Positions 2,812 to 30,153 of a DNA stretch of 33,435 bases are shown here, in pieces (the first letter of the stretch is position 1; the number at the start of each line of letters is the position of its first letter). Source of the stretch: Bacteroidales bacterium. Its GTDB lineage: Bacteria; Bacteroidota; Bacteroidia; Bacteroidales; Paludibacteraceae. Location: the NCBI GenBank assembly GCA_015654525.1, contig JAATGT010000158.1, positions 1 to 33,435 on the forward strand, in the 5' to 3' direction. The translations under genes were made by a program, and so were the position numbers. Under the pieces are notes generated by a model. It was not told the origin of the DNA. It made no database searches and was given only the letters and a program-made list of their open reading frames with translations.

Positions 2812-3606
2812 ATGGCTATTATATTCGATATAAAACGTTTTGCCGTACACGACGGTCCGGGAATCCGCACAACGGTTTTTCTGAAAGGCTGTCCGCTTTC
2901 GTGTCGCTGGTGTCATAATCCGGAGAGCATGAGTACGGCTATATGTTCCGTTGCTAAAACAGTGCGGATTGGGGATAAAACTTTCACCGAAAACGAAACG
3001 GTCGGATCGGAAATGAGCCTGGAGGATGTGATGAAAGAACTACGCAAAGAACAGGTCTTTATGGAAGAATCGGATGGAGGAGTAACTTTTTCGGGAGGTG
3101 AACCTTTGCTGCAACATGCATTTCTTGCAGAAATTCTTGCTGCCTGCCAAAAGGAAGGAATGCACACAGCAGTCGACACCTCGGGTTTTGCCCAATGGGA
3201 ATCACTGGAGAAAGTAGCCCGGCATACAGATTTGTTTTTGTATGATCTGAAGCTGATGGACGATGACTTGCATAAAACCTACACCAGTGTTTCGAACAAA
3301 CTAATTCTGGAAAACCTGCGGCAGTTGCTTGATTTCGGCAAAAAAGTACGCATTCGGTTACCCATGATTCCCGGAATCACATTTACCGAAACGAACATTT
3401 GTCAGACACTTGAATATTTGTGCTCATTGAGCAATGAGGTGGAAGGAGTAGACTTACTGCCTTACCACAACACGGCTTCGCATAAATACGAACGATTTGG
3501 AATAGACAACTCACTTAAAGAGTTGAAAACAGTAACTAAAACTGATTTATTCGAAGCCCAAAAACTGTTTGAACAAGCAGGCTTCGACGTGAAAATTGGT
3601 GGCTAA
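2812..3606 (+). CDS. Glycyl radical enzyme activating enzyme (radical SAM)
   Basis: Uses S-adenosylmethionine and a [4Fe-4S] cluster to install the glycyl radical on its partner, here the HypD encoded 62 bases downstream. The frame is open from 2677, but family members begin at the motif FDIKRFAVHDGPGIRTTVF, so I chose ATG 2812 (264 residues). The first 45 codons upstream are low-complexity and unlike the family. The radical-SAM cluster motif CPLSCRWC (CX3CX2C) comes at residues 27-34, followed by HNPES, and SAM-binding GGVTFSGGEP follows. Most activases of the dehydratase class carry an inserted ferredoxin-like domain with eight cysteines between these motifs. Here the insert is short and has a single Cys (ICSV), so only one Fe-S cluster is expected. 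No Shine-Dalgarno is visible. Confidence 0.93.
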   Translation: MAIIFDIKRFAVHDGPGIRTTVFLKGCPLSCRWCHNPESMSTAICSVAKTVRIGDKTFTENETVGSEMSLEDVMKELRKEQVFMEESDGGVTFSGGEPLLQHAFLAEILAACQKEGMHTAVDTSGFAQWESLEKVARHTDLFLYDLKLMDDDLHKTYTSVSNKLILENLRQLLDFGKKVRIRLPMIPGITFTETNICQTLEYLCSLSNEVEGVDLLPYHNTASHKYERFGIDNSLKELKTVTKTDLFEAQKLFEQAGFDVKIGG

Positions 3607-3612
3607 CCGTAA

Positions 3613-3645: not shown

Positions 3646-3668
3646 ATACTAACTAAAACAACAATAAT

Positions 3669-6032
3669 ATGACTCCCAGAATTCAACAACTCCGCGAACA
3701 AAGCCTCAATGCTATCAACAGTATTTCTGCAGAGCGAGGCTTATTGATTACTGAATTTTATAAGAATCACCTGGCTTTCGGTGACTCTATTCCTATGCAG
3801 CGCGCCAAATCATTTCAATATATTTTGGCGAATAAAAGTATTTGTATTAATGATCAGGAACTGATCGTAGGCGAACGCGGCCCTGCCCCGAAGGCTACAC
3901 CTACTTATCCGGAAATTACCGTTCATTCTTTAGAGGATCTGGAGATTCTGAACACCCGCGAAAAGGTCTGGTTTCGGGTAGATGAAGAAACCCGCAAAGC
4001 TTTTGGCGAAACAATTATTCCGTTCTGGACAGGTCGGTCTAACCGCGACCGCATGATGGAAGCCATGACCGATGAATGGAAGGATGCTTACGGTGCCGGT
4101 ATATTCACCGAGTTTATGGAACAACGGGCACCGGGTCATACGGTGGCCGGATACAAGATTTACCAAAAGGGAATGCTTGATATTATGCAGGATATAGAGG
4201 AAAGTATCAAAGCACTTGACTTTATAACCGACCCCCTGGCTTACGACAAAAAGGAGGAGCTCAAGGCAATGAAGATTACAGCCGAAGCCATTATCCTGTT
4301 TGCCAACCGGCATGCCGATAAGCTGGAAGAGCTTGCTGTCCTTGAAAAAGACAGTGCCCGCAAAGCCGAATTGACTGAAATGGCACGTATATGCAGACGT
4401 GTACCGGCTCATGCTCCGGCTACTTTCCACGAAGTGTTGCAGCATTACTGGTTTATCCATCTGGGCGTGGTGACGGAACTTAATCCCTGGGATTCGTTTA
4501 ACCCCGGCAGACTGGATCAGCATCTTTATCCGTTTTACAAAGCCGAGACCGAAGCCGGAACGCTCACACGCGATCAGGCGGTGGAAGTACTCGAATCATT
4601 TTGGGTGAAATTCAACAATCACCCATCACCTCCCAAAATTGGTGTAACAGCTCAGGAAAGCAGTACCTATACCGATTTCTGTCTGATTAATCTGGGCGGT
4701 GTAAAGCCGGACGGAACCGATGCGGTGAATGAGATGTCCTATATCCTGTTGGATGTGATTGAAGAAATGCGCCTGTTGCAACCCAGCTCCATGGTGCAGT
4801 TGAGCAAGCTGAATCCCGATAGTTTTATCGACCGGGCAGTAAAAATTACTAAAACAGGATTCGGTCAACCTTCCATATTTAATACCGATTCCATTATTCA
4901 GGAATTGGTGAATCAGGGTAAGGAGTTGGTGGATGCGCGCAACGGAGGCTGTAGCGGTTGTGTGGAAACCGGAGCTTTCGGAACTGAAAGTTACATTCTT
5001 TGCGGCTATTTCAATCTGCCCAAGATTCTCGAAATCACCTTGCACAACGGTTTTGATACCCGTACTCAGAAACAACTGGGACTCCCAACCGGAGAAGCTT
5101 CCGACTTTAGCACTTATGCACAATTGCTGCAAGCTTTCAAGGCACAGGTTGAACATTTTTTGCGGATAAAAGTTATAGGTAACAATACGATCGAAAAGAT
5201 TTTCATGACGCATATCCCCACGCCTTTCCTGTCGCTGATTATCGACGACTGTGTGGCGCGTGGCATGGATTATATTCAGGGAGGAGCACGTTATAACTCC
5301 AACTACATTCAGGGAGTGGGTATGGGAACAATTACCGACTCACTTACTGCGCTGAGAAAACATATTTTTGAAGATAAATCCATAACTTTGCCCGACTTTG
5401 TGGATGCACTCGAAAGCAATTTTGAAAACAAGGACGAATTGCTTTACAAGTTGCTTTACAAAACTCCGAAATACGGGAACGATGACGACGAAGCCGATGC
5501 GCAACTGGTAGATGTGTTCAATATTTATTACGATGCAGTAAAAGGACACCGGAGTCCGCGGGGTGCCGAGTACCGGATCAACCTGTTGCCTACCACTTGC
5601 CACGTGTACTTTGGCAGTGTGATGCATGCCAGTCCGGACGGACGAAAAGCAGGGTTGCCGGTTTCCGAAGGGATTTCGCCCGTGCAGGGATCGGACAAAA
5701 AAGGACCGACTTCGGTCGTGAAATCGGCCGCTAAGATTGACCATTTGCACACCGGAGGCACCTTGTTGAACCAACGGTTTAGTCCGGCCTTTTTCGAGGA
5801 CGACACCGCTATCCGAAAGGTCTCAGGATTGGTGCGTAGTTATTTCAGGATGCACGGACACCATATCCAGTTTAATGTTGTGGACTCGTCTACACTGCGC
5901 GACGCTCAGAAACATCCGGAAAAATACCGAAATCTGATTGTACGGGTGGCAGGGTATAGCGATTACTTTAATGATTTAGGACTCGATCTGCAAAATGAGA
6001 TTATTCACCGGACTGAACACGAATCTTTATAG
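3669..6032 (+). CDS. hypD: trans-4-hydroxy-L-proline dehydratase, glycyl radical enzyme
   Basis: Removes water from trans-4-hydroxy-L-proline to give (S)-1-pyrroline-5-carboxylate, which ProC can reduce to proline. At 787 residues it has nearly the length of the characterised Clostridioides difficile enzyme. Every catalytic or substrate-contact residue I recall from that enzyme is present at a constant offset of three: thiyl C431 and base E433 (in SGCVETG), glycyl G762 (in RVAGYSD), plus F149, H157, D275, S331, D336, F337, Y447 and T642. This separates it from pyruvate formate-lyase, glycerol dehydratase and choline lyase. It probably forms an operon with the activase upstream. No proC is visible in this window. 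The enzyme is oxygen-sensitive once activated, which implies an anaerobe. Confidence 0.96.
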   Translation: MTPRIQQLREQSLNAINSISAERGLLITEFYKNHLAFGDSIPMQRAKSFQYILANKSICINDQELIVGERGPAPKATPTYPEITVHSLEDLEILNTREKVWFRVDEETRKAFGETIIPFWTGRSNRDRMMEAMTDEWKDAYGAGIFTEFMEQRAPGHTVAGYKIYQKGMLDIMQDIEESIKALDFITDPLAYDKKEELKAMKITAEAIILFANRHADKLEELAVLEKDSARKAELTEMARICRRVPAHAPATFHEVLQHYWFIHLGVVTELNPWDSFNPGRLDQHLYPFYKAETEAGTLTRDQAVEVLESFWVKFNNHPSPPKIGVTAQESSTYTDFCLINLGGVKPDGTDAVNEMSYILLDVIEEMRLLQPSSMVQLSKLNPDSFIDRAVKITKTGFGQPSIFNTDSIIQELVNQGKELVDARNGGCSGCVETGAFGTESYILCGYFNLPKILEITLHNGFDTRTQKQLGLPTGEASDFSTYAQLLQAFKAQVEHFLRIKVIGNNTIEKIFMTHIPTPFLSLIIDDCVARGMDYIQGGARYNSNYIQGVGMGTITDSLTALRKHIFEDKSITLPDFVDALESNFENKDELLYKLLYKTPKYGNDDDEADAQLVDVFNIYYDAVKGHRSPRGAEYRINLLPTTCHVYFGSVMHASPDGRKAGLPVSEGISPVQGSDKKGPTSVVKSAAKIDHLHTGGTLLNQRFSPAFFEDDTAIRKVSGLVRSYFRMHGHHIQFNVVDSSTLRDAQKHPEKYRNLIVRVAGYSDYFNDLGLDLQNEIIHRTEHESL

Positions 6033-6124: not shown

Positions 6125-7513
6125 ATGTTCAACAAAGAAACTTACATTAAACGCCGCAAGACACTGGCCGAAAAAATTGGTTCGGGTCTGGTTTTGCTTC
6201 TGGGAAACGACGAAAGCCCGATGAATTACGCCGACAATGGTTATCATTTTCGTCAGGACAGTACTTTTTTATATTATTTTGGTATCGATTTTCCGGCTTT
6301 GGCGGGAGTGATTGATGTAGATAATAACCGTCAGCTTATTTTTGGCAACGATTATACCATCGACGATATTGTGTGGATGGGACCTCAGCCCACTATAGCC
6401 GATTATGCCGCCCAAAGTGGAATCAGTGAATCGCATCCTACAGCCGAATTGGCCAAACTGCTGGGCGAAGCTCAGAAGAAAGGGCGCGAGATTCACTTTT
6501 TGCCGCCTTACCGTCCCGAAAACAAACTGAAGCTGCAGGATTTGCTTGGACTTCATCCGGCAGAGATAGCTTCGAAGTCGTCAGTCAAACTGATTCGTGC
6601 CGTGGTAAGCCAACGCGAAATAAAATCGGACGAAGAAATCCGCGAGATAGAAAAAGGAGTGGATGTTTCGGTGGATATGCACATAGCTGCCATGCAGTTT
6701 GCGCATGCAGGCATAACCGAAGCACAGGTTGCTGCCCGTGTACACGAAATAGCTCATGCTGCAAACGGTGAAATTTCATTTCCCATCATTGCTACCATCA
6801 ACGGACAAACGCTGCACAACCATTGCCACGGTAATGTGCTTAAAAGCGGCGACCTCTTTCTGCTCGATGCCGGTGCCGAAGTGGAAAGTCATTACTGCGG
6901 CGATCTGTCCAGCACGTTTCCGGTAAATCTGACTTTCACAGCTCAACAAAAACTGATTTATGAAATGCAGTTGAAAGCACATTATGCAGCCATTGATGCA
7001 TTGGCACTGAATGTGCCTTATCGGGAGGTACACTGGGCGGCTTGTCGCTCAATCACCAACAGCATGAAAGAACTCGGGCTGATGAAAGGTGATACCGAAG
7101 CAGCCATGGCAGCAGGGGCGCATGCACTTTTTAACCCCTGCGGAACCGGACACATGATGGGGCTGGACGTACACGACATGGAAGACCTCGGCGAAGTGTG
7201 GGTGGGCTATGATGGCGAACCGAAGAGCACACAGTTTGGACTCAAATCGCTCCGTTTTGCCAAACCGCTCAAACCGGGACATGTATTTACCATTGAACCG
7301 GGCATTTACTTTATCCCCGAACTGATGGACAAATGGCAGGGCGAAGGTTTGTTCACCGACTTTATCAACTGGAAGGAAGTACAAAAGTTCCGCTCGTTTG
7401 GAGGCATCCGCAACGAAGAAGATTACATGATGACCGAAAGCGGACCGCGCCGACTGGGTACAAAAGTAAAACCCAAAACAGTAGAAGAGGTAGAAGCAGT
7501 ACGAAGAGGCTGA
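6125..7513 (+). CDS. pepP: Xaa-Pro aminopeptidase (aminopeptidase P, M24B)
   Basis: Removes an N-terminal residue when proline is second. Cytoplasmic, no signal peptide. Residues 1-150 match the AMP_N domain and 165-462 the pita-bread metallopeptidase fold. All five dimetal ligands are visible: D248 (LLDAG), D260 (YCGD), H343 (GTGHMMGLDVHD), E391 (TIEPG) and E431 (GGIRNEED). At 462 residues it has the usual length of the long aminopeptidase P form. It lies 92 bases after hypD, separated by the shared palindrome, on the same strand. Co-location suggests a joint role: freeing residues from proline- or hydroxyproline-containing peptides that then feed HypD. Cleavage before hydroxyproline is an inference. 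No Shine-Dalgarno. Confidence 0.93.
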   Translation: MFNKETYIKRRKTLAEKIGSGLVLLLGNDESPMNYADNGYHFRQDSTFLYYFGIDFPALAGVIDVDNNRQLIFGNDYTIDDIVWMGPQPTIADYAAQSGISESHPTAELAKLLGEAQKKGREIHFLPPYRPENKLKLQDLLGLHPAEIASKSSVKLIRAVVSQREIKSDEEIREIEKGVDVSVDMHIAAMQFAHAGITEAQVAARVHEIAHAANGEISFPIIATINGQTLHNHCHGNVLKSGDLFLLDAGAEVESHYCGDLSSTFPVNLTFTAQQKLIYEMQLKAHYAAIDALALNVPYREVHWAACRSITNSMKELGLMKGDTEAAMAAGAHALFNPCGTGHMMGLDVHDMEDLGEVWVGYDGEPKSTQFGLKSLRFAKPLKPGHVFTIEPGIYFIPELMDKWQGEGLFTDFINWKEVQKFRSFGGIRNEEDYMMTESGPRRLGTKVKPKTVEEVEAVRRG

Positions 7514-7525
7514 TTTTAATCAAAA

Positions 7526-7560
7526 CAACTTTCCCAAAGTTTTGAACTTTGGGAAAGTTG
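7526..7560. repeat. Palindromic spacer repeat, copy 3 (covarying)
   Basis: 16-bp arms CAACTTTCCCAAAGTT (7526-7541) and reverse complement (7545-7560), loop TTG. Compared with copies 1 and 2, TTTTCC has become TTTCCC on the left and the pairing bases have changed to match on the right, so the stem is kept perfect. It follows pepP and might act as its terminator. Confidence 0.93.
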
Positions 7561-7789
7561 TTTCTAATTATTTCCAAATGGACATCCGCTTTGTTGCCTA
7601 ACAATAATATCGATAGATATTATCTTTTGTGGACTTCAAAAACAATTTACCACAAAAGGCACAAAAGGTACACAAAAGCAGGAAATGAAAGTTTTGAGCC
7701 ATATATCGTCTGCATTTTCAAGGAAACAAAAGCTAAGCAACTGAACGAAATGTGTTTTTTTAGTTTTTCAAAGACGATGGTATTTCACA

Positions 7790-7995: not shown

Positions 7996-9942
7996 TTACA
8001 AAACCACTACAAACCCGCCATTCGGTTTTAGTTCTACCGACAGTTTATTGTTGTTGATCGTTACCTGTTTTTGAACAAAATTGCGGTTAGTATCGCCGTC
8101 AGTAATCAGCGTAGGGACGAAAGTCCGACTCAATTTTAGTTTCAGTGCAGACAAATCGAGTGTCAGTTTTTGCGTTTCGGCCTGTGAGTTGATGCCGGCC
8201 AAATACCACCTGGTGCCGCAACGCCGTGCCATGATCACGTACTTTCCGGGGAAGCCATCGATCAGTTTCACATCGTCCCAATGACGTGGAACCTGACGCA
8301 TATAGTCTTTTACAAACCCGGGTTGTTTCTCCATACTTTCCGGTATTTCCACATAATGGCTCACACCCGATTGAAGAATCACTGTTAGTGCTATTTCAAA
8401 TCCATTACTTGTGCGACGTTGCTTTCCAACAATTTCGCCAAAGCATACCGGAGTAAAATCCATAGGTCCTACTACGTTTCGGGCATAGGGCATCATGGTA
8501 AGATGCTTGGGAGCCTTGTCGGTATCTTTCTGATCGAAGGTGGTAAATTCAAATCCACGAATAGCTTCCATCGAAACCAGATTAGGGAAAGTGCGCGACC
8601 AGCCACGGGGAACGGTGGTGCCATGGAAATTTACCAGCAAATGATAATCGGCGGCATCTTTCATCATGTCGTAATAATATTGAATAGCCGACTGACCATC
8701 GCCCGGCCAGAAATCAACTTTTATCCCTGCAATGCCCATATTGTGAATCCGCTCGAACTCCTTACGGCGTTCAACACGTTCAAACAATGCATTTTTAGGC
8801 GAATAAACAGTAGTATTCCAGGAACCCGAAGAATTATACCAAAGAATCAGACCCACATTTTTTGTTTTGGCATAATCGGCCAGTTCTTTTATTTTATCAT
8901 ACCCGATACGTCTGTCCCAGTCGGCATCAATCAGGCAATACTCCCAGTTCATATCCGAAGCGTAATTGATAAACTTTTTAGTGACCGGATAATTCACCGA
9001 TTCGTCGTGTAATATGCCCCAACTCCACGATGCAATGCCTGTTTTTACCCAACTAAAATCAGCTTTTTTATCTACTGCCGGTGCCAGGTCGGTCACCATT
9101 TGCGATTCTACGACGGTGGACAATGAACCCACTACCATTACGCGCCAGGGCGAAACGATGGTAGCCGAAACCGGATAAGCCGGATCGTCGGGGTGTGTGG
9201 TTTCACCTTTTTGAGGAAAGCCAATCATGTATTCACCATCCGGCGACTGCTGCGCCAACCGCGTTCCCACATAGTTGGGAGTCAGACCGGCTTCGGTAAT
9301 CAGCACCCAGTGTCCGTCAGTCTGAAACAAAGCCGGAAACGACCAACCCGCCACTTCGGGCGACTGCGTGCCAACCGGAATCTCATATTCGTATTGTTCC
9401 TCGTAGCTCGGTTGCGTTTCGCACCAACCTTCCTTCACATTAGCATGCGGATGCATCCATGCTTTAGTAGAGGGAGTAAATTTAAACGATGTAGCTTCAC
9501 TTGTCACAGCTATTCCCTTTTTGGCATTCAGCAAATAGCGGAAAGCAACTCCCTCGTTGGTGGCTTTAAATTCAATAATGAGCTTTTTATTGTCCGCATT
9601 GGTAAGTGTCATAGCCGAACTGTTGGCGGTATAAGTGCGGCTAACCCGTTTTTCGGCAGGAGTCGAATAGGTTTCGGTGAATGTTGTAACCTCCGATACT
9701 TTATCGACCTTCAGGCCTTTGCTGAAATCGCCCTTATCGGTCACCAGACCCAGTGCCGACTGTAAAATCACAGGCTGATTGTTCAGTTTTACATCATAAA
9801 CCGCTTGTCCCCGGGCATTCAGCCCCGCTTTAATGGTCAGCTTTCCATTGGGCGATCTTAAAACTAATTTTTGCGTTGTGGCTGCCTGCATATAACAGAT
9901 TGACAACAATACCAAAGAGAACGAAAGAACATGTTTCTTCAT
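7996..9942 (-). CDS. Glycoside hydrolase family 97, secreted
   Basis: An exo-acting glycosidase, probably periplasmic: residues 1-20 are a signal peptide (MKKHVLSFSLVLLSICYMQA). Residues 25-290 form the N-terminal beta-sandwich and 300-560 the (beta/alpha)8 barrel, followed by a C-terminal beta domain. At 648 residues the length is typical. D410 in GIKVDFWPGD aligns with the catalytic Asp of the retaining, alpha-galactosidase-like branch, and E459 in SMEAIRGFE is the likely acid. The SusB-type inverting alpha-glucosidases lack that Asp, so I favour alpha-galactosidase or beta-L-arabinopyranosidase, both known in the family. The second would fit the arabinan locus 6 kb away. It is a single gene with its own -7 box (9997-9990) and no SusC/D partner nearby. 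Confidence 0.92.
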   Translation of the reverse strand: MKKHVLSFSLVLLSICYMQAATTQKLVLRSPNGKLTIKAGLNARGQAVYDVKLNNQPVILQSALGLVTDKGDFSKGLKVDKVSEVTTFTETYSTPAEKRVSRTYTANSSAMTLTNADNKKLIIEFKATNEGVAFRYLLNAKKGIAVTSEATSFKFTPSTKAWMHPHANVKEGWCETQPSYEEQYEYEIPVGTQSPEVAGWSFPALFQTDGHWVLITEAGLTPNYVGTRLAQQSPDGEYMIGFPQKGETTHPDDPAYPVSATIVSPWRVMVVGSLSTVVESQMVTDLAPAVDKKADFSWVKTGIASWSWGILHDESVNYPVTKKFINYASDMNWEYCLIDADWDRRIGYDKIKELADYAKTKNVGLILWYNSSGSWNTTVYSPKNALFERVERRKEFERIHNMGIAGIKVDFWPGDGQSAIQYYYDMMKDAADYHLLVNFHGTTVPRGWSRTFPNLVSMEAIRGFEFTTFDQKDTDKAPKHLTMMPYARNVVGPMDFTPVCFGEIVGKQRRTSNGFEIALTVILQSGVSHYVEIPESMEKQPGFVKDYMRQVPRHWDDVKLIDGFPGKYVIMARRCGTRWYLAGINSQAETQKLTLDLSALKLKLSRTFVPTLITDGDTNRNFVQKQVTINNNKLSVELKPNGGFVVVL

Positions 9943-10820: not shown

Positions 10821-10825
10821 ATTAT

Positions 10826-11283: not shown

Positions 11284-11610
11284 TTATTTTCCTACATTGA
11301 TATGGATATTCGGTAAATCTACCTGAAACCGGACTTTCGCTTTCAAAGCGGTAAAAACACGTAATAAAGTATCCAGCGTAACATTGTTGGCATTGTTTTC
11401 AAGCCGGGATATTTGAGCTTTCTGAACACCAATGAGCTTGCCCAATTCTTCCTGAGTCATGTGTCGTTCCTGACGGGTTTGCTTTATCGCTTTCCCTATC
11501 ATATCTAATTGTAGCTCGTATTCATATCTTTCACGAGCGGGTGTTCCTACAGTACCGATAAGTTCATCCTGCACTTCGTCTAAGCTATATGTTTTCATCT
11601 TATTTTTCAT
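11284..11610 (-). CDS. XRE-family antitoxin (HigA-like)
   Basis: DNA-binding antitoxin of the toxin-antitoxin pair. Residues 35-95 form an XRE-type helix-turn-helix (TQEELGKLIGVQKAQISRLE). The N-terminal 30 residues are probably the toxin-binding part. The start at 11610 overlaps the toxin stop by 11 bases. An in-frame ATG at 11598, just after that stop, is equally possible and would give 104 residues. Gene order toxin-then-antitoxin is the HigBA arrangement. It likely binds the promoter upstream of the toxin and represses the pair. Confidence 0.9.
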   Translation of the reverse strand: MKNKMKTYSLDEVQDELIGTVGTPARERYEYELQLDMIGKAIKQTRQERHMTQEELGKLIGVQKAQISRLENNANNVTLDTLLRVFTALKAKVRFQVDLPNIHINVGK

Positions 11611-15437: not shown

Positions 15438-15661
15438 ATATTTTCTATTTGAAACTACTGTGAACTATTGTGGTAAAAAACATAGCAATAATAATTATCA
15501 TTGACTTACTATCCGACTTGCTTAAGTCCGTTAATCTTTTCCAGTACAAATATATTAATTTATCTTTTCTGATTCACCGCTCGTGCGACCGAATAGACAA
15601 TAATGATACTTTTTTAGACGGGTTTATCCTCCTCAGATAAAATGACAGACACTCGCAAAAA

Positions 15662-15689
15662 AAAGCAGAGTCGTTTAAAACTCTGCTTT
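15662..15689 (-). terminator. Intrinsic terminator of the arabinan locus
   Basis: AAAGCAGAGT (15662-15671) pairs with ACTCTGCTTT (15680-15689). On the minus strand a run of eight T follows. It lies 26 bases past the last GH43 stop and so ends the susC-susD-GH43-GH43 transcript. Confidence 0.85.
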
Positions 15690-15714
15690 CCTTCATTAAC
15701 TACAACTTTTTTAT

Positions 15715-16731: not shown

Positions 16732-16875
16732 GTCTCTTCTTCTGGTTGATTCGTTTGTTATGTTCGTTTTTAGGAGCATTTGAGTTACTTGAATTAAAAT
16801 GACAACAACGTAAAATAGATGCAATCAATAAAATAGAAAGAGAATATAAACCGGATTTTTCCAATAAGAATAATG

Positions 16876-20055: not shown

Positions 20056-23000
20056 TTATTTAAGACTTAAATTAACTCCAAACATAATGGTTCTGGGAGT
20101 TGGGTATGACCCTGCATTGTAACCAGGATTCCATACACTGCCTGCATAGTCCGGATTGTACCCTTTATAAGAAGTGAAGGTGTACACATTTTGGCAAGTC
20201 CCATATACTCTGACCGAGGAAAAAATACTCTTAGTCAAATTCTGAGGTAATGTATAACCTATAGATATAGTTGACAATCTCAGATAAGCGCCATTTTGCA
20301 ACCATCCCGGACGATTTGAATTTCTATCATTGTCATTGCCATCAACATAAACAACTCTTGGAATATCAGTATTCGTGTTAGTTGTAGTCCAACTATTCAA
20401 AATGTCCGTAGACCAGTTTAGTCCGCCTGCCGTATGCATCAAAGTACGATAAGTATTGTCGATAACTAAAAATTTTGTTACACCATGTGCGAACAATGAA
20501 AAATCCCAATTTTTATAAGATGCACTAAAATTTAGGCCATACGAAAAATGTGGAATAGAACTACCTAAATCTGTTCTGTCTGCAGCTGTAATTTTACCGT
20601 CGCCATTCAAGTCTTTGTATTTGACATCTCCCGCGGAAGTCGATGAAGATTGGTAAACCGAACCGGCTCCATTTTTTGAAACGGCTAAAGCGTTAGCAGC
20701 ATTAACTTCAGCTTGTGATTGAAAAATACCATCATACACATACCCATATTGACGACCTACTTCTTTTCCTTCTTCCGAAATAGATCCTACTCCGTAAATC
20801 GGTTGTCCGTTGTTACCAAGACTAATTACTTTGTTAGCTAGTGTAGCACCATTTGCAGAAATATCAAATTTGAATGGATTTTTGTGATTATGATACGTCA
20901 ACGTAAATTCAAATCCCTGATTCTCCATGGTACCAGCATTTACAACAGGGTTGGTAACAATTGAACCAACTGAATAAGGAAGAGTTACATTAACCAGCAA
21001 ATCTGTACTTCTTGAATTATAGTATTCTGCTGTAAAATCGAATGCATGATCTAGGAAACTGGCATCAAGACCAACATTGGCCATACGTTTACTTTCCCAT
21101 TTGATATTGTTATCTACAACAGATGATTCGCTACTTCCATATACAACTGTATTATTGAAATTATATACATAGTTCCGATTAACCGATTGCAAATATTGAT
21201 AATTTCCGATATTTTCATTTCCAAGTACACCCCAACTAGCTCTCAATTTCAAATCAGAGATAGTATGCTCATCGACAGTAAAGAATTTTTCGTGATTTAT
21301 TTTCCATCCTACCGATACGGAAGGAAAATATCCGAAACGATTAGCTTTTGAAAAACGGGAAGAGCCATCTCTTCTTATTGTTCCAGACAATAAGTATCGA
21401 TCATCGTAGTCATAATTCAAACGAGCCATAAGCGAGGACAAATAATGGGCATTACTGTAACTTGAACTAGTAGTTGTTTGTCCATTTGCCAACTCTATGT
21501 AATAGGGAGTTGTAAACCCTTCGGCATGTCCAGTTACAGTGTTATAATTATCCGCCTGAAAAGATTGTCCTATCATAGCATCTATTTTATGCAATCCGAA
21601 TTTTCCTGAATAATTTAGCGTATTTTCAATCAATCCTGTACTATAATTTCTGTATCCTTCATCCAGTTTAGCCACATTATTAGTATAAAAATCTGTGAGA
21701 CTAAATGCCGGAATCCAGTTTAAGTCTTTAGCATAGGTCTTATCCCATGATACATTGAGTTTATATTTTAATGTTTGATTTCTAAGATTAAGAATTTTAT
21801 TAAAATCTATTTCTGCTGAGCCACTTGCCAAAATACGATCAACATTGGTACTCGATTTTAAGATATTATTCATAGCCACCATATTTAAAGAGTACATTTC
21901 TCCCTGAGTGGCGGTATTATAGGTACCATAGCCCGTTGAAGTCGAAGAATCATAAACCTTCTGGGTCGGAACTGCAGCTAATATTTTGACAATCATTGGA
22001 GGATTACCTCCGGAAAAGCTCGATTGATCAGTTGAATTTAAAGAATTTTGATCAGAATGAGAATAAGTCACGTTCGTATTAAATTTGAATACGCCTACTT
22101 CAGCAGTATTTGTAGCACGGATAGTATAGCGTTTATAGTCTGGACCTACTCCTACCAGAGTTCCTTTTGAATTATAATAATCTAACGAAAGATTGTATGT
22201 TGAACTCTTACCGCCTCCTGCAAAATTAAGATTATAATCTTGGCGAATACCTGTTTTCAGTGCTTCCTTTTGCCAATCAGTATTTACATCACTTATATAA
22301 TCAGATGACGTTGGATCATTTGCCGACCAAAGCGCACTACCATTATTGACCCGGCTACGATTATTGATAGTTTGATACTGTGAACTGTTCAAAACTGAAA
22401 TTGTCTTTGGAACATTATCAACACCAAAATAACCGGAAAAATCTACTTTTAGTGGAGTGCCTTCTTTTCCATGTTTTGTTGTAATAATAATAACACCGTT
22501 AGCTGCACGTGCTCCATAAATTGCTGCTGCAGATGCATCCTTTAAAACCTGCATAGATTCAATATCATTCGGTGAAAAATCGCGAATGGTTGTTCCTACT
22601 GGAACTCCATCAACAACATATAATGGCGAAACATCCCCGAAAGAACCAACACCCCTTATTCTAACTGTTGGATCGGCACCCGGTTGTCCATCTGTTGATA
22701 CGCTGACACCGGCAATGCGACCTTCAAGCATAGTACTCATGTTGCTATTCGACATTTTTTTCATATCTTTTACGGATACTACTGCAACAGAACCGGTCAA
22801 ATCGCTTTTCTTCTGTGTTCCGTAACCGACAACCACTATTTCATCAACATTTACAGAATTTTCAACAAGTGATACGTTGATTATTTTTTTATTTTCAATA
22901 CGTATTTCCTGTGTTACCATTCCAATATATGAGAAAGTAAGAAATTTTGCATCTTGTGATAAAGACAGTGTATAATTGCCTTCGAGGTCAGAGATAGTCC

Positions 23001-23211
23001 CGGCGGAAGTTCCATTTACTTTAATAGAAACCCCCGGCAACCCATTACTACTAGCGTCGGTTACTTTTCCTTTTATTGTTTGTATCGATTGTGAATAACC
23101 TGACACAGCATAAAAGCTGTTGACCAAAAGAATCAGCATAAAGCTAATTAATTTAGTGTGATTTTTTAATGTTTGAGCATATGTTGCTCCATCTTTCTGT
23201 GTTTTATACAT
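20056..23211 (-). CDS. susC-like: SusC/RagA-family TonB-dependent transporter
   Basis: Outer-membrane importer of oligosaccharides, 1051 residues. Signal peptide to about residue 41 (GYSQS). A carboxypeptidase-D-like beta-sandwich follows (about 46-108, IKGKVTDASSNGLPGVSIKV). The TonB box is near 122-133 (VDEIVVVGYGTQ). The plug domain runs to about 250 (DASAAAIYGARAANGVIIIT), then the 22-strand barrel ending in an aromatic-rich strand (TIMFGVNLSLK). No extra N-terminal STN signalling domain is present, in agreement with control by the hybrid sensor rather than an anti-sigma factor. It is the first gene of the susC-susD-GH43-GH43 operon. A -7-like TACATTTG lies about 145 bases upstream. Confidence 0.96.
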   Translation of the reverse strand: MYKTQKDGATYAQTLKNHTKLISFMLILLVNSFYAVSGYSQSIQTIKGKVTDASSNGLPGVSIKVNGTSAGTISDLEGNYTLSLSQDAKFLTFSYIGMVTQEIRIENKKIINVSLVENSVNVDEIVVVGYGTQKKSDLTGSVAVVSVKDMKKMSNSNMSTMLEGRIAGVSVSTDGQPGADPTVRIRGVGSFGDVSPLYVVDGVPVGTTIRDFSPNDIESMQVLKDASAAAIYGARAANGVIIITTKHGKEGTPLKVDFSGYFGVDNVPKTISVLNSSQYQTINNRSRVNNGSALWSANDPTSSDYISDVNTDWQKEALKTGIRQDYNLNFAGGGKSSTYNLSLDYYNSKGTLVGVGPDYKRYTIRATNTAEVGVFKFNTNVTYSHSDQNSLNSTDQSSFSGGNPPMIVKILAAVPTQKVYDSSTSTGYGTYNTATQGEMYSLNMVAMNNILKSSTNVDRILASGSAEIDFNKILNLRNQTLKYKLNVSWDKTYAKDLNWIPAFSLTDFYTNNVAKLDEGYRNYSTGLIENTLNYSGKFGLHKIDAMIGQSFQADNYNTVTGHAEGFTTPYYIELANGQTTTSSSYSNAHYLSSLMARLNYDYDDRYLLSGTIRRDGSSRFSKANRFGYFPSVSVGWKINHEKFFTVDEHTISDLKLRASWGVLGNENIGNYQYLQSVNRNYVYNFNNTVVYGSSESSVVDNNIKWESKRMANVGLDASFLDHAFDFTAEYYNSRSTDLLVNVTLPYSVGSIVTNPVVNAGTMENQGFEFTLTYHNHKNPFKFDISANGATLANKVISLGNNGQPIYGVGSISEEGKEVGRQYGYVYDGIFQSQAEVNAANALAVSKNGAGSVYQSSSTSAGDVKYKDLNGDGKITAADRTDLGSSIPHFSYGLNFSASYKNWDFSLFAHGVTKFLVIDNTYRTLMHTAGGLNWSTDILNSWTTTNTNTDIPRVVYVDGNDNDRNSNRPGWLQNGAYLRLSTISIGYTLPQNLTKSIFSSVRVYGTCQNVYTFTSYKGYNPDYAGSVWNPGYNAGSYPTPRTIMFGVNLSLK

Positions 23212-23752: not shown

Positions 23753-25711
23753 CTATAATTTTATCGTATATAAATTAAATGATTGCGGAGCAAGTTCCAC
23801 CTCTAATTTATTTCCGGGAATTCGAATTTCTTTTTCAGTTGGAACAACATTATCCGGTTTATCCAAGGTATTTTCGGCATCCATATCGGTAGATACAAAG
23901 ATGGTTTGCGTTCCTTTTCGTTCGGAAGTTTTTAAACCATTAATAGTATAAGCGATTTTGCGGGGCTCTTTGGATGTATTAGCAATCTTCAGAATAATTT
24001 CATTCTTATTCTTATCGAGTGCCGAACTTGCAAAAATTCCATCTTGCCCTGCCAGCGGTAATTTATTTTCAACAGTAGGAAGTACATTAGTTCCAACATG
24101 CATTCCATAAAGCTGCTGAACATAATAATTAGGCGATTTTACGGAACGTAGATTATCAAACCAAATGAGGTCAGGCTTCCATTGCCATCCTTCAACATGA
24201 GCAAAAAGCGGTGCATAAGTACATTGATAAACCACATCGGCATTACGTTCAAAACCGGTCATAAAAGCAGATTCGCAAAGTGCTGATTCAAAATTATTTT
24301 TCCGGTTTTTAGGATGGCAGGCATATTCGCCGGCAAATACTTTCGGTCCTTTGCGATCATAATTATCATAGCGTTTTGCATTTGCCAGAAACCATTGTGG
24401 ATCTTTGTAGTAGTGTTCGTCCACCAAATCAGCTTTTAAGCGTTTCATTTCACTCCACCCAAATTCAAAGTCTTTTCCATCCGGACTTGGACCGGCTGAA
24501 CCTATGATTTTAATAGCCGGATATTTACTTCGGATTGCTTTTACAAACGGTTCGAGACGTTCGGGATAAAGTTTTCCCCATTGTTCGTTCCCTACAGCTA
24601 TCATTTTCAGATTAAAAGACGCCGGATGTCCCATATCAGCACGCAGTTTTCCCCATTTCGTAGTTGCATCTCCATTGGCAAATTCAATTAAATCAAGTGC
24701 ATCCTGAATATAAGGATCAAGATCATTCACAGCTACATGAGCTTTGTCATCTTTGTTTTGGAACTGGCAAGATAATCCGCAACTAATAACAGGAAGTGGT
24801 TCGGCACCTATTTCTTCCGATAATTGGAATAACTCAAAGAACCCCATTCCATAGGATTGAAAATAATCGGGGAAGAAACGGTTTGGAAATGTATATTCCC
24901 AACGGTTCTCATTTAGTTTACGATTTTCAACAGGTCCAACAGAGTTTTTCCACTGGTAACGGGTTTGCAAATCAGTTCCCTCCACAATACAGCCTCCGGG
25001 GAAACGAAAAACACCCGGATGTAAATCATACAGTGCTTGTGCCAGGTCTTTACGCAAGCCGTTTTCACAACCTTTCCATGTATCAACAGGGAAAAGGGAA
25101 ACGTGATCCATATCCACAGCGTTTTTTGATGCGAGGAAAATGCGCAGACGGGCTTTCGCTTCGGTCTTGCCGGCTTTTAATACAACCTGATATTTTTTCC
25201 ATTCCTTCGAATCGATAGTCAGTTTTTGTGTACTAAACACACTACTTTCCGGGTCGATCAGCTCTACCCGAAGACTTCCTGAAATATTTTCTTGTGGCAG
25301 GCGAGCCCAAACAGAAAAACGATATTCTGCATCTTGCTTAACACCTATACCAAAGAAACCTTCGTTATCAAGCCCGGTTTGTTTTTCATCGTGACCAGGA
25401 TATGAAAGACGAATATAATGTGGGTTGTTCGGAAAAGGTGCTTCATCTGTACGGACTTCCACGTTACCAAAAGTAGTCCAGCCTAAGAGACTTTGGGGAA
25501 ATTCAAAAGATCGGTTTTTGATCAGTTCGGCGTATAATCCACCGTCTGCACCATAATTGATATCCTCGAAAAAGATGCCATACATCGTTTTTTGGATAGG
25601 CGAACCAACCTTCTTCAAATCGACCTGAATGTTGTGTGTCTGCGAAAAAATCAGTTGTGTTCCTAATACAATTGAAAGTATAGACACAACTAAAGATTTG
25701 TTTTTTTTCAT
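23753..25711 (-). CDS. GH51 alpha-L-arabinofuranosidase, exported
   Basis: Releases L-arabinofuranose from arabinan and arabino-oligosaccharides with retention. Signal peptide to about residue 24 (LIFSQ). After the start of the catalytic barrel (YGIFFEDINYGADGGLYAEL, 44-63), a carbohydrate-binding-like jelly-roll insert covers about 70-210. The barrel then continues, with acid/base E376 in GNEQWG and nucleophile E462 in FAGEYACH. A C-terminal beta-sandwich ends the protein. At 652 residues it belongs to the long, exported Bacteroidota form rather than the cytoplasmic 500-residue type. It lies between the regulator and susC, same strand, with 140 bases after the regulator stop side, so it is probably induced with the locus. 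Confidence 0.95.
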   Translation of the reverse strand: MKKNKSLVVSILSIVLGTQLIFSQTHNIQVDLKKVGSPIQKTMYGIFFEDINYGADGGLYAELIKNRSFEFPQSLLGWTTFGNVEVRTDEAPFPNNPHYIRLSYPGHDEKQTGLDNEGFFGIGVKQDAEYRFSVWARLPQENISGSLRVELIDPESSVFSTQKLTIDSKEWKKYQVVLKAGKTEAKARLRIFLASKNAVDMDHVSLFPVDTWKGCENGLRKDLAQALYDLHPGVFRFPGGCIVEGTDLQTRYQWKNSVGPVENRKLNENRWEYTFPNRFFPDYFQSYGMGFFELFQLSEEIGAEPLPVISCGLSCQFQNKDDKAHVAVNDLDPYIQDALDLIEFANGDATTKWGKLRADMGHPASFNLKMIAVGNEQWGKLYPERLEPFVKAIRSKYPAIKIIGSAGPSPDGKDFEFGWSEMKRLKADLVDEHYYKDPQWFLANAKRYDNYDRKGPKVFAGEYACHPKNRKNNFESALCESAFMTGFERNADVVYQCTYAPLFAHVEGWQWKPDLIWFDNLRSVKSPNYYVQQLYGMHVGTNVLPTVENKLPLAGQDGIFASSALDKNKNEIILKIANTSKEPRKIAYTINGLKTSERKGTQTIFVSTDMDAENTLDKPDNVVPTEKEIRIPGNKLEVELAPQSFNLYTIKL

Positions 25712-25851: not shown

Positions 25852-28800
25852 TTAGTTATCTTTCTTGTCATCAAAAAATGAGCTGGGCTGAATGCCAAAA
25901 TGTTTGGTAAAACAGCGTGTAAAATACTTAGGATCATTAAATCCAACTTCATAAGCAATCTCAGAAATATTTAGCGAATGATTTATCTGATTCTTTATAA
26001 TTAATTCGCGTGCAATGTTGAGCCGGTAAATACGAATAAACCTGCTGGCCGATTGCCCTGCCAAATTCTTCAGTTTTTTATGTAGTAGACTCCTGCTGAT
26101 TCCCATGGCATCCATAAACTCAGTTACATCAAAATCCGGATTTGTATAGTTTTCTTTAATCACTTTCAGAGCCTTGTCAATAAATTTTTTATCCAATGAT
26201 TCATTATCAAAGTTCAACGTGTCCGGATCCATGTTCTCGGCAAAATTGAGTTGAATTCGTTTACGTTTTTCGCTCAGATTTCGGATTATTGCTTTTAACA
26301 GATCTTCATCAAAGGGTTTCACCAGAAATGCATCGGCTCCTAGTTGAAAGCTTTCAATTTGAGTATCGGTTGAAGATTTAGCTGTAAGTAAAATAATCGG
26401 AATATGCGAAGTAGTAAAAGTGGTCTTTACCCGTTTGCAAAACTCCATACCATCCATTTCAGGCATCATAATGTCACTTATAATCAAGTCAGGAAGATAT
26501 CGGTTAGTTACCTCAAGTCCCACAACTCCATTAGGAGCCTCAAGTACGTTAAACTCATCGCTCAAAATGGACCGAATATATTGGCGCATATCGCTATTAT
26601 CTTCGACGATTAATAAAACAGGCTTTCCTTTTGAAATTTCTTCAGAAATAGTATCATTCTCATCTGTTTGATTTGTCACTAACATTTCAATAGGTTGACC
26701 ATCCAACGATACTACACTTGAAAGTCGGCGTTCTATCGGTATAATAAACCGAAAACTAGCTCCTCCGGAAGCTTGATTTTTTACTTCAATTTTTCCATTG
26801 TGCAACTGAATGATTCGCTTACACAGATAAAGTCCAATGCCGGTTCCACTTTGCCCATAGCCCGAGAAAGCCTGATTTTGTTTAGATTGATAGAAACGAT
26901 CGAATATTTTTTCCTGATCTTCTTCGGGTACACCTTTCCCTGTATCTTTTACCGCTACATAAAGCCGCTCTTTCTGATCTGATTTATCTACATAGGTACT
27001 GGCAACTACCGTAATAGTTCCTTGATTAGGAGTGAATTTAATTGCATTAGAGAGTAAATTACTCAATACTTTTTGCATGTTATCTCTGTCAAACAAAAAC
27101 TCGGCTGGATTGATGCGGTATTGTTTGCGGAAAGTAACGCCCCTGTCTTTTACCAGATCTTCGAATGGTAAAATCAGATCATCCAGGAATTCTACAAAAT
27201 TTTGTTGTGTTTTTACCAATTCCATCTTACCCGAATCCACTTTTCTAAAATCCATTAGTTGATTGATTAGTGTCAGCAACAATCGGGAATTGCGTTGTAC
27301 AATATTAAGCTGTTCAAGAACTTTCGGGTTTGTGCTCAACTTCAACGATCGTTCTACTGGTCCAAGAATCAATGTGATCGGGGTTCTGAATTCGTGGGTA
27401 ATATTAGTAAAAAATGATATTTTGTCCAGATTGGCTTCCTGTACTTTCTTGGACAAGGTAATAAGTTGTTCCTTTTGATGAGTAATTTTCTGATTTTGGT
27501 TTGTCAACATTTCATTCTGTCGGGATACTTCTTGCTGATGCTCAATAAGTATTTCCATATTCGATTTTAGCTGATCTGCTTGTTCTTCGAGCATTTCTTT
27601 TTGTTGCTCAATTTCATGAGTCCGTTCCTCCACCAATTGTTTCAGTTGAATCTTTTGTTTTTTCAATAAGTTGATTCGATGAACATAGTATTGATACACG
27701 CTATAAATCAGAGAGCTAAGAAACAGAAGGAGAAACCACCATGTTTTATAAAACGGAGGAATTACTTTTATTTTGAGAGTTGTAAGCTCTTCAGACCAGG
27801 TTCCATCAGTATTTGTACATTTAATTTCAAGTTCGTATTTACCATATTTGATGTTGGTAAAAGTTGCAAAGCGCCGATCTGAACTTACCTCAGTCCAGTT
27901 ATTGTCAAACCCTTTCAGGCGATAAGCATATTTAATCTTATCAGCCAAATTATAGCAAAGTGCAGAAAATTCTACACTGAATGTTTTGTCCGACTCTTTA
28001 AGAACAATCTGATTTAGATTAACCCCATCAAATTTTAAATGACGATCCGAATTTTTGAAATTAGGAGGGAATATATCTTCATTTAAAACTTTAATCCGGG
28101 TAATCGAAGCTTTATTTTTGATTAATATCGGATTTGATTTCAATGGATCAAAGCTGGTAAATCCGGCTACGCTCCCGAAGTACATTTTTCCATCTATGCC
28201 CTTGCAAAAAGCATCCCAATAAAATTGATTGGATTGTAATCCGTCTACTTTAGTGAAACTTCTATTACTATCTTTGCTTGGATCGTAGGCGCACAAACCC
28301 TTATCGGTACTTAACCAGATCCTGCCCGCATCATCTTCGAGCATACCATATATCACATTGTCCAGCAAACCGGTATTTTGATTGAAATTCTGGAATTTCA
28401 TTCCATCCGCTTTTTCATTAAGGCAATAAATACCATTGCCGTTACTTCCAAACCACAAATGACCTTCTTTGGTCTCTAGTATACAATTTATTTTCTCAAT
28501 TTTGCGTGAAGCCGGATTTGTTAACTCGTAATGAAAATGCTTGTAACATATCCTGTTCCGTTTTATATTTGTTTTATTTAAATAAATACAAAACAATCCA
28601 TTACCAGCACCTACCCACAACCGTCGATTATGGTCAATATACATTCCGGTTATAAATTTTGGACGCTTTTCCAATGGCAAATAACTTAAAACATGGATAA
28701 ACTGATCATTATCCAGATCAAGATAATCCAGTCCAAGGCGTGTACCCACCCACAATGCATGGTTTTTATCATCCGATGCCATGGCAGCAACAAAGTCATT

Positions 28801-30153
28801 GAATATGGATTTCATTGAATGTGGATCATTATAGAATTGTTGGAATACCGGCTTATACCTGTCTGCATACTTCACTCTGTTAATTCCTCTTCCCCACGTT
28901 GCAAACCAATAATCGCCGCGATAATCCTGACAAATATAGCTAACAGAATTGTGACTTAACGATTTGAGATTACCCAACTCACTATAATAATGAGAAAAAG
29001 CAGTTGAGCCTCGTTTGCGCAGATTAAGTCCTCCCTCCACAGTGCCGACCCACAAGTCACCGGATTTATCTTCATAAATGGAATTCACCGGATTTTTGGA
29101 CAAACTGCCAGGGTTTTCCGGAGAATACAGAACATTACTGAAGATATTTGGATCCGGAGTCAAGAGATTTATACCTCCTTTTTCGGTTCCAACCCAGATG
29201 GAATTGTCATTAACAAAAACACAGCTTACAAAATTATTATTCAGAGAAACTCCATTCCAATTAGTTTCAGAGCTTATATGCTCAAAATTATCAGTTCGAT
29301 AATCATAGATATTTAAACCAATAAGAGTTCCTATCAGTAATTGTCCGTTTTTGTTTTTATTGATATCGGTTATATAGCTCGACGAAAGAGAGGTATTCCG
29401 AAATGGATTTGCCAGATAAGGGGTTAAAGCCTCTGAATTGGGTTCATACTTGTAAAGACCTATAGAAGTTCCAACCCAGATTAAACCATTGTCGTAATAT
29501 AGCACATTTACGAACCCTAAAAAGTTTTTTAATTTTTCATCTGTATTTACCTTCTTATACTTTCCGTTAGCTCCTTTTATCAAGCGACACACCGTATTAT
29601 CAATTCCCAAAAACAGACTTCCATTGAGTTGTAGAAATGCAATAACAGGAGAGGTACTTCGATAAATGATTTCTGTTTGGATTTTATTGTCAGCAGTATA
29701 ATGTAGTTTTACCAACCCTTTGTCATAGCCAATCCACAAGTCACCGGAGTCATCTTTTTTTATAAAATTTATGGTGCTGCAACGCAGATTAAACTTGGAA
29801 TCAAACATGGCATTTGCTATTTCGCCGGTTTGATAGTTGAAGAAGTTGAGTCCATTTTCAGTTCCAATCCAGAAATTGCCATTATTATCTTCTTCAATAC
29901 AGTGAATATTATCACTCTGCAGGACATTTCCTAAGTTTCGACTATTAAAGTGGATAAAATCATACCCATCATATCTGTCGAGCCCATTGCTGGTTGAAAT
30001 CCACATAAATCCCCTGGAGTCACGGAAAATCTGATTTACCAGATTTCGCGACAAACCGTTGTCGGCTGTTAAGTAACTGATTTTATAAGGCAACGACCAC
30101 GAAAGGTTTAAGCTGACAACTGTAAGGATGGTCAGAAGGAATATTTTCTTCAT
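25852..30153 (-). CDS. Hybrid two-component system regulator (sensor kinase, receiver, AraC output)
   Basis: One-protein signalling system that senses a glycan fragment in the periplasm and activates the locus. Signal peptide or anchor at residues 1-20. About 25-700 are ligand-sensing propeller repeats (recurring DLWVGT.GGL and WIGTENGL motifs), with a Y_Y_Y domain near 715-790. One transmembrane helix lies near 805-825, then a coiled coil (830-905). HisKA has phospho-acceptor H920 (HEFRTP). HATPase has NLLSNAIKFT, DTGKGVP and GTGIGL. The receiver has phospho-acceptor D1227 (SDIMMPEMDG), and the last 100 residues are an AraC-type double helix-turn-helix. Every catalytic box is intact. The arabinan signal is inferred from the adjacent GH43 and GH51 genes. 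Confidence 0.96.
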   Translation of the reverse strand: MKKIFLLTILTVVSLNLSWSLPYKISYLTADNGLSRNLVNQIFRDSRGFMWISTSNGLDRYDGYDFIHFNSRNLGNVLQSDNIHCIEEDNNGNFWIGTENGLNFFNYQTGEIANAMFDSKFNLRCSTINFIKKDDSGDLWIGYDKGLVKLHYTADNKIQTEIIYRSTSPVIAFLQLNGSLFLGIDNTVCRLIKGANGKYKKVNTDEKLKNFLGFVNVLYYDNGLIWVGTSIGLYKYEPNSEALTPYLANPFRNTSLSSSYITDINKNKNGQLLIGTLIGLNIYDYRTDNFEHISSETNWNGVSLNNNFVSCVFVNDNSIWVGTEKGGINLLTPDPNIFSNVLYSPENPGSLSKNPVNSIYEDKSGDLWVGTVEGGLNLRKRGSTAFSHYYSELGNLKSLSHNSVSYICQDYRGDYWFATWGRGINRVKYADRYKPVFQQFYNDPHSMKSIFNDFVAAMASDDKNHALWVGTRLGLDYLDLDNDQFIHVLSYLPLEKRPKFITGMYIDHNRRLWVGAGNGLFCIYLNKTNIKRNRICYKHFHYELTNPASRKIEKINCILETKEGHLWFGSNGNGIYCLNEKADGMKFQNFNQNTGLLDNVIYGMLEDDAGRIWLSTDKGLCAYDPSKDSNRSFTKVDGLQSNQFYWDAFCKGIDGKMYFGSVAGFTSFDPLKSNPILIKNKASITRIKVLNEDIFPPNFKNSDRHLKFDGVNLNQIVLKESDKTFSVEFSALCYNLADKIKYAYRLKGFDNNWTEVSSDRRFATFTNIKYGKYELEIKCTNTDGTWSEELTTLKIKVIPPFYKTWWFLLLFLSSLIYSVYQYYVHRINLLKKQKIQLKQLVEERTHEIEQQKEMLEEQADQLKSNMEILIEHQQEVSRQNEMLTNQNQKITHQKEQLITLSKKVQEANLDKISFFTNITHEFRTPITLILGPVERSLKLSTNPKVLEQLNIVQRNSRLLLTLINQLMDFRKVDSGKMELVKTQQNFVEFLDDLILPFEDLVKDRGVTFRKQYRINPAEFLFDRDNMQKVLSNLLSNAIKFTPNQGTITVVASTYVDKSDQKERLYVAVKDTGKGVPEEDQEKIFDRFYQSKQNQAFSGYGQSGTGIGLYLCKRIIQLHNGKIEVKNQASGGASFRFIIPIERRLSSVVSLDGQPIEMLVTNQTDENDTISEEISKGKPVLLIVEDNSDMRQYIRSILSDEFNVLEAPNGVVGLEVTNRYLPDLIISDIMMPEMDGMEFCKRVKTTFTTSHIPIILLTAKSSTDTQIESFQLGADAFLVKPFDEDLLKAIIRNLSEKRKRIQLNFAENMDPDTLNFDNESLDKKFIDKALKVIKENYTNPDFDVTEFMDAMGISRSLLHKKLKNLAGQSASRFIRIYRLNIARELIIKNQINHSLNISEIAYEVGFNDPKYFTRCFTKHFGIQPSSFFDDKKDN

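Follow-up and report, generated by a model that had tools for sequence, protein, structure and literature searches.

Does a hydroxyproline dehydratase act together with the arabinan utilisation locus near which it is encoded, or do the two simply lie on the same contig? The question is raised by a 33,435-nucleotide stretch of DNA from a Bacteroidales bacterium of the family Paludibacteraceae (GenBank assembly GCA_015654525.1, contig JAATGT010000158.1; hereafter the window, contig C29 of a 4.16 Mb, 89% complete assembly in 361 contigs), which carries the dehydratase gene hypD, peptidase genes, a GH97 gene and an arabinan locus. A sequence-only reading had proposed that the two halves join in an attack on hydroxyproline-rich, arabinosylated plant wall glycoproteins. 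We consider it fairly probable that the window instead holds two modules side by side, one for hydroxyproline-peptide use and one for arabinan utilisation sensed by a hybrid two-component regulator (HTCS), both serving growth on plant walls and not forming one coordinated machine. The two blocks have separate hairpins, hypD recurs beside prolidase and S9 peptidase genes, and within the genus hypD co-occurs with arabinose-type genes; a shared plant-wall niche of both modules is partly supported, and a joint, co-regulated attack on one glycoprotein is conjectural.

A probable hydroxyproline-peptide module

Comparison of 83 hypD-holding sequences (80 loci, two further loci and the window) reveals a recurrent set of neighbours, counted within eight genes on stretches many of which are ended by contig edges, and named by cluster from one scanned representative each. 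An activase is present in 73 of them (72 immediately 5' of hypD) and a proline-racemase-family protein in 9. The peptidases among the neighbours are prolidase (30 sequences), S9 (16), S37 (12), M3 (11) and C69 (8); the C69 and S37 peptidases were counted by family, which does not imply specificity for proline. The downstream side was counted in 81 sources (the 80 loci and the window, with L084 and L101 left out), 60 of which have at least three open reading frames (ORFs) 3' of hypD. Within three genes 3' of hypD, the prolidase cluster occurs in 22 of these 60, the S9 cluster in 10 and both in 8; outside the genus (n = 53) the corresponding numbers are 15, 8 and 6. At least one of five clusters of peptidases (those of prolidase, S9, S37, C69 and a 593-aa M24 protein) is found there in 34 of the 60, versus 2 of 83 three-gene control windows taken from the same loci at a distance of more than five genes. 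In the six loci outside the genus that have both S9 and prolidase genes, both lie 3' of hypD on the same strand. Because HypD beside prolidase and/or S9 recurs in this way across Bacteroidales loci, the first block of the window is probably a hydroxyproline-peptide module, and the evidence for the hydroxyproline half is firmer than the sequence-only reading held.

Within the genus, the prolidase gene lies 3' of hypD in all nine genomes that carry hypD (with one intervening ORF in G139), and an S9 gene lies within 10 kb of hypD in five of them (G000, G124, G137, G146 and G151). The G139 operon is apparently interrupted: in its locus L004 a 379-aa ATPase-like ORF separates activase and hypD, and a 326-aa ORF separates hypD and prolidase. 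NCBIfam searches at 1e-20 returned no match for a distant hypD-linked S9 or an S37 neighbour. Some hypD loci also encode proteins of the ornithine-cyclodeaminase/pyrroline-2-carboxylate-reductase and proline-racemase families (L036:16257-17261 and L042:8517-9560); the latter is closest to trans-3-hydroxyproline dehydratase, and the matches of both families fall under their cut-offs. These genes suggest combined use of 3- and 4-hydroxyproline at some loci.

In the window, HypD, a trans-4-hydroxy-L-proline dehydratase of the glycyl radical type, is encoded at 3669..6032 on the plus strand. The dehydratase assignment of the sequence-only reading is confirmed, as the protein scores 1227.1 bits against the curated equivalog model NF043068 (cut-off 1100) and keeps the catalytic Cys, Glu and Gly in alignment with the solved HypD 6vxc (1006 bits; Cys431 and Glu433 in GCVETG, Gly762 in RVAGYSD); we take the glutamate of the Cys loop to have a catalytic role. 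The radical SAM activase is encoded immediately upstream (2812..3606, plus strand); counted from the start codon that relatives share, it is 264 aa long. It misses the curated HypD-activase cut-off (best model NF043069, 302.6 vs 425 bits) and passes that of the generic TIGR02494; it is a short form whose best stretch covers positions 97-299 of NF043069. The pair is thus like the C. difficile-type system (6vxc) in its curated HypD score and aligned catalytic residues, and unlike it in that a prolidase-like gene follows hypD and the activase is short. Literature searches for HypD with aminopeptidase and for HypD with prolidase gave no title on a bacterial gene cluster, in results that did not reach the original HypD paper, which reportedly appeared in Science in 2017. 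PMC7077986 names Cys434 and Gly765 of HypD and does not contain the words gene cluster, peptidase, plant or Bacteroid.

Directly 3' of hypD, an M24/AMP_N peptidase of 462 aa is encoded at 6125..7513 on the plus strand, which the sequence-only reading had called aminopeptidase P. That name had to be given up: the protein scores higher against human prolidase (2iw2, 186 bits) than against the best aminopeptidase P (5wze, 134 bits) or that of E. coli (1a16, 116 bits), and nine prolidase residues (human W107, H255, D276, D287, H370, H377, R398, E412 and E452) are present in the alignment, residues to which PMC8438212 ascribes metal binding, substrate binding or product release. The prolidase name rests on these active-site residues because no NCBIfam cut-off is reached (Xaa-Pro dipeptidase NF010133, 151 of 339 bits; aminopeptidase NF008131, 141 of 465). 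By strict patterns, 30 prolidase-cluster proteins contain WMG in 28 cases, GxGH..G..VHD in 29, EPGxYF in 27 and GxRxEED in 18. The protein is most likely a cytosolic prolidase, that is, an Xaa-Pro/Xaa-Hyp dipeptidase; it has the metal ligands and substrate-binding residues of human PEPD in common, and differs from it in being bacterial, 462 aa long and encoded directly 3' of hypD, its prolidase activity being predicted. Since prolidase cleaves Xaa-Hyp as well as Xaa-Pro dipeptides (PMC8438212), the enzyme would feed HypD its substrate directly. The three genes are followed by a terminator-like hairpin (7523..7563, plus strand; 19-bp stem, fold -25.5 kcal/mol), whose stem is the longest among 21 sites in a pattern scan for which shuffling gives an expectation of 16.6.

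Taken together, the exported S9 peptidase described below, should it belong to this module, would trim proline- and hydroxyproline-rich peptides; small peptides would then enter the cell through a carrier that is not in the window; dipeptides of the Xaa-Pro and Xaa-Hyp types would be split by the prolidase; and HypD, once activated by the radical SAM enzyme, would dehydrate free trans-4-hydroxyproline to pyrroline-5-carboxylate for proline synthesis or fermentation. The recurrent HypD-prolidase (and S9) module would in this way release free hydroxyproline from peptides in Bacteroidales.

The exported S9 peptidase and the arabinan locus

The S9 gene (12969..15212, minus strand; the ORF extends to 15299) has a probable start at 15212 and a signal-like N-terminus as read from the sequence, and its product matches Pfam DPPIV_N and Peptidase_S9. 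The predicted structure (pLDDT 81.9) has as its best Foldseek folds SmDAP IV, P. gingivalis PTP and bacterial DPP-IVs, matches that support a DPP-IV fold, and a Ser-Asp-His triad is aligned (GASAGG, DDNVDP and MPHTMG). The double-Glu motif is missing: the window protein has the short loop EDYYSA where L049, L070 and the bacterial DPP4 7y4f have DWVYEEE. Among 21 S9 sequences compared, the short loop is found in the window and ten close relatives, a longer loop without the motif in eight distant ones, and DWVYEEE in two (L049 and L070). According to PMC5807507, the motif binds the substrate N-terminus and is essential for exopeptidase activity. The window protein thus has the propeller, hydrolase fold and triad of DPP-IV and prolyl tripeptidyl aminopeptidase in common, and is unlike DPP-IV in this loop; of the exported DPP-IV-like peptidase first described, the fold, triad and probable export hold, and the name DPP-IV was rejected for want of the motif. 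The protein may be an endopeptidase, or it may act as an exopeptidase that uses a different clamp.

The S9 gene is probably a transcription unit of its own. Its assignment as the final gene of the arabinan operon was rejected because a terminator-like hairpin with a T run (15657..15694, minus strand; fold -19.1 kcal/mol, outside the pattern-scan list) lies in between. Two further observations concern this gene. Identity to the closed genome G001 is 96% for the S9 protein, versus 75% for GH51 and 93% for metG, and the S9 gene may have been exchanged recently. Near the S9 genes of two relatives lie POT-family peptide transporter-like genes (L084:18120-19649 and L094:11971-13329), possible dipeptide carriers.

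Beyond the hairpin, all on the minus strand, lie an AbnA-like GH43 endo-arabinanase (15715..16824; NF053747, 315 bits, under the cut-off of 480), a BT0367-like GH43 arabinanase with a GH43_C domain (16876..18357; Pfam GH43 and GH43_C; NF049888, 437 bits, under the cut-off of 800), a SusD-like glycan-binding lipoprotein (18435..20039; Pfam SusD_RagB), a SusC-like TonB-dependent transporter (20056..23211; TIGR04056, 872 bits, cut-off passed), a GH51 alpha-L-arabinofuranosidase with CBM4/9 (23753..25711; Pfam ASD1, Alpha-L-AF_C and CBM_4_9; 279 bits to MgGH51) and the HTCS with AraC-type output (25852..30153; Pfam Reg_prop, Y_Y_Y, HisKA, HATPase_c, Response_reg and HTH_18). With a SusC/SusD pair, HTCS, GH43 and GH51 together, the arabinan locus claimed from sequence is indeed present, both GH43 proteins scoring under the curated arabinanase cut-offs. 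In this second module the HTCS would sense, SusC/SusD would import, and the GH43 endo-arabinanase-like enzymes and the GH51 arabinofuranosidase would act on arabinan. We take the reference arabinan utilisation locus of Bacteroides to be of the BT0348-BT0369 type; SusC/SusD, HTCS, BT0367-like and AbnA-like GH43 and GH51 are common to both, and the window locus differs in having no GH146 and in that 4 of the 11 genomes with this S9 have its gene at most 11 kb from GH51. The arabinan half is in this sense ordinary.

Between the modules, convergent with the first block, a retaining-type GH97 enzyme is encoded at 7996..9942 on the minus strand (Pfam GH97 N-terminal, catalytic and C-terminal domains). 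Among solved chains it is closest to 5xfm (418 bits, with the IKVDF motif in register), which we take to be BT3661, followed by the alpha-galactosidase 3a24 (169 bits). The suggestion that it may be a beta-L-arabinopyranosidase fits this ranking, and a beta-L-arabinopyranosidase or alpha-galactosidase is possible.

hypD and arabinose-type genes in the genus

The window reads, from left to right, metG (minus), a 182-aa protein (plus), activase, hypD and M24 peptidase (plus), GH97 (minus), two small genes, a CPBP protein (minus) and the S9 peptidase (minus), then two GH43, SusD, SusC, GH51, HTCS, a CxxCxxCC protein and a RapA-type helicase, all minus. The genes named by the sequence-only reading are real and above chance by family scores; they are arranged as separate blocks.

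HypD was found in 9 of 48 genomes of the genus and in 3 of 120 sampled genomes of the family (both at E 1e-200); HypD-like matches occur in 101 of 295 sampled genomes of the order (E 1e-250), among which those of about 50% identity perhaps represent other glycyl radical dehydratases. Within the genus, GH51 is present in 9/9 genomes with hypD vs 11/39 without it (Fisher 1e-4; p 0.001 by permutation inside genome-size quartiles, with sizes rounded), S9 in 7/9 vs 4/39 (Fisher 1.3e-4; size-stratified p 0.002) and GH97 in 6/9 vs 4/39 (Fisher 1.1e-3; size-stratified p 0.02). The mean number of PF07944 matches, weak ones included, is 4.9 vs 2.3 (p 0.0017; size-stratified p 0.004), and 3.6 vs 1.2 for matches above 200 bits alone. 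Two controls do not track hypD, GH10 xylanase (4/9 vs 22/39) and RapA (1/9 vs 6/39). GH51 was called present at 60% identity or more, including an edge fragment in G131 and a split gene in G147; recounts agree (9/9 vs 6/39 at 70% or more, and 9/9 vs 10/39 without G131). The S9 homologues of G128 (48%) and G139 (50%) were scored absent, and including them gives 8/9 vs 5/39 (p 2.7e-5); for prolidase, G128 (57%) was scored absent and the edge fragment of G131 present. In a tree of metG that covers 41 of the 48 genomes (seven without a metG match excluded; G146 a long branch), hypD changes state 9 times, at least 5 of them on supported branches, against a shuffled-label mean of 8.3; as the count is about that of shuffled labels, hypD is not the trait of one clade. 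Given this co-occurrence, what becomes of extensins and arabinogalactan proteins under anaerobic conditions can be put to the test.

Physical linkage is more limited. hypD lies within 20 kb of a GH51 orthologue in three of the nine hypD genomes (G000, G146 and G151) and not in five (G105, G122, G124, G126 and G137), the contigs of G139 being too short to tell; the window GH51 has no match at 1e-10 in the 73 hypD loci outside the genus, which are 3 to 22 kb long, and a SusC, HTCS or GH51 cluster falls within three genes 3' of hypD in 2 of the 60 loci, genus included. Linkage of hypD with arabinan genes, put forward for checking by the sequence-only reading, therefore stands for three genomes of the genus and is rejected as a general rule outside it. 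G146 and G151 have the same order, HTCS, GH51, S9, prolidase, hypD and activase, with two small ORFs splitting S9 and prolidase in G146; metG is about 10 kb from this row in G146, and G151 has it on a different contig. In G126 (L003), a PF06964 protein and a GH43, divergent, lie directly 5' of the activase. G132, which has no hypD, resembles the window in carrying S9, two GH43, SusD, SusC, a 561-aa protein, GH51 and HTCS between metG and RapA; identities to the window are 81-82% for GH51, HTCS and S9 and only 38-47% for SusD and SusC. In G145 and G126, GH51 lies about 11 kb from metG with no hypD between. Because GH51 is near metG also where that neighbourhood has no hypD (G132, G145 and G126), part of the proximity of hypD to arabinan genes is an old neighbourhood.

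Two side observations belong to these loci. A same-strand row of PF06964 arabinofuranosidase, GH43, Melibiase_2 (GH27 type, with a sorting tail) and GH97 stands directly 5' of activase-hypD-prolidase in G146 (L002:1703-8745). In G132 (L088 and L089), SusC, SusD and one GH43 are 34-47% identical to those of the window, and the import cassette may have been exchanged.

The sequence-only reading had noted that GH127- and GH146-type enzymes were not seen. This is correct for the family-scan matches of the window (GH121 was not searched for) and not for the genome, where three strong PF07944 proteins are encoded on contigs C54, C185 and C351. The C54 protein is closest to 5opj (362 bits), which we take to be the GH146 enzyme BT0349; the C185 protein is closest to 6ex6 (692 bits), presumably the GH127 enzyme BT3674, and is followed by SusC- and SusD-sized genes (judged by size only) and a GH43. 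The C351 protein exceeds the aceric acid hydrolase cut-off and adjoins GH141 and rhamnosidase-type genes, a context that suggests a locus directed at rhamnogalacturonan II. In PMC10850190, BT0349 is a GH146 acting on arabinan-derived oligosaccharides, BT3674 is counted among characterised beta-L-arabinofuranosidases, and GH146 enzymes that cut Araf-beta1-Hyp are reported. With GH146-like and GH127-like genes found elsewhere in the genome, the objection of a missing enzyme weakens; deglycosylation would be possible in the organism, though not encoded at the window locus.

One machine or two modules

If the window did encode a joint attack, glycosidases encoded in the window and at other loci would strip arabinose and galactose side chains, S9 and prolidase would dismantle the hydroxyproline-rich core, and HypD would consume the hydroxyproline. 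The co-occurrence of hypD with GH51, GH97, S9 and more PF07944 genes, and not with GH10 or RapA, speaks for such a scheme, as do the arabinose-type genes directly 5' of the activase in G146 (L002) and G126 (L003), the single gene order from HTCS to activase in G146 and G151, and the genome's own PF07944 proteins closest to 6ex6 (with SusC-/SusD-sized genes and GH43) and 5opj. We nevertheless think it rather unlikely, since in five of nine genus genomes hypD does not lie within 20 kb of GH51 and none of the 73 loci outside matches GH51; the window GH43s are endo-arabinanase-like and suit pectic arabinan more than the glycans of glycoproteins; the family-scan matches of the window include no GH127/GH146, galactanase or endopeptidase family; and the hairpins are separate, with the sole regulator on the arabinan side. 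Of the original proposal, the genus-wide association and the GH127/GH146-like genes of the genome thus remain in its favour. A broader form, in which Paludibacter-like bacteria have inherited GH51, GH97, GH27, GH127/GH146, the clamp-less S9, prolidase and HypD as an anaerobic glycoprotein set, eating both core and sugar, appears to us doubtful. A comparable genome-based proposal, that Latescibacteria degrade hydroxyproline-rich glycoproteins such as extensins and arabinogalactan proteins with GH127 and peptidases, has been made (PMC4454575); the part of that paper seen by us describes no hydroxyproline dehydratase or gene linkage.

At the other extreme, the arabinose-type genes may have long resided near metG, and the hypD block landed there with no functional relation. 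To this we assign a little under an even chance: G145 and G126 have GH51 some 11 kb from metG and no hypD in the interval, the S9-arabinan locus of G132 sits between metG and RapA without hypD, and hypD changes state nine times on the metG tree, at least five times on supported branches; it leaves unexplained the genome-wide co-occurrence, to which genomes carrying the genes on separate contigs also contribute. That the first module serves collagen-like or general protein peptides, unrelated to plant glycoproteins, would fit the hypD-like matches in 101 of 295 order genomes (E 1e-250 or better) and the 3-hydroxyproline-type and pyrroline-2-carboxylate-type family proteins, under their cut-offs, at some hypD loci, 3-hydroxyproline being a collagen residue. 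Within the genus, however, hypD tracks arabinose-type genes, and the family scans of the window contain no collagenase and none of those 3-hydroxyproline families, so that this explanation too seems improbable. The reading of two modules, which would serve growth on plant walls, for example on arabinogalactan proteins or extensins plus pectic arabinan, has results of our own set against it. One of the six outside loci with S9 and prolidase, L070, has a classical double-Glu S9, and a strict pattern finds the SLRxA motif (human R398) in just 18 of the 30 prolidase-cluster proteins. Eleven genomes have S9 at 68% or more, and four of them (G000, G132, G146 and G151) carry the gene no more than 11 kb from GH51; since G132 has no hypD, S9 could belong to the arabinan side. 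The presence cut-offs were chosen after the tables were seen, and the genomes are often incomplete; the tree pair test gives 2.7-3.5 pairs for and 0.0-0.1 against, with just 5 supported independent pairs, for which p 0.05 is unreachable.

Among the remaining neighbours, the 182-aa protein of unknown family (1828..2376, plus strand), which has no Pfam or NCBIfam match at 0.001, marks the old neighbourhood: it adjoins metG or is one gene off in G001, G034, G094, G105, G124, G126, G132, G145 and G146, and was not seen beside metG in G122, G137 or G151. Scans of the window for tRNA and Rfam families gave zero matches. In the gap between GH97 and the CPBP gene (11284-11935), two overlapping small genes resemble, as read from the sequence, a helix-turn-helix antitoxin and a RelE/HigB-like toxin. 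The RapA-type helicase gene (31434-33434), which adjoins the arabinan locus, is present in 7 of the 48 genus genomes, and its position is shared with G132.

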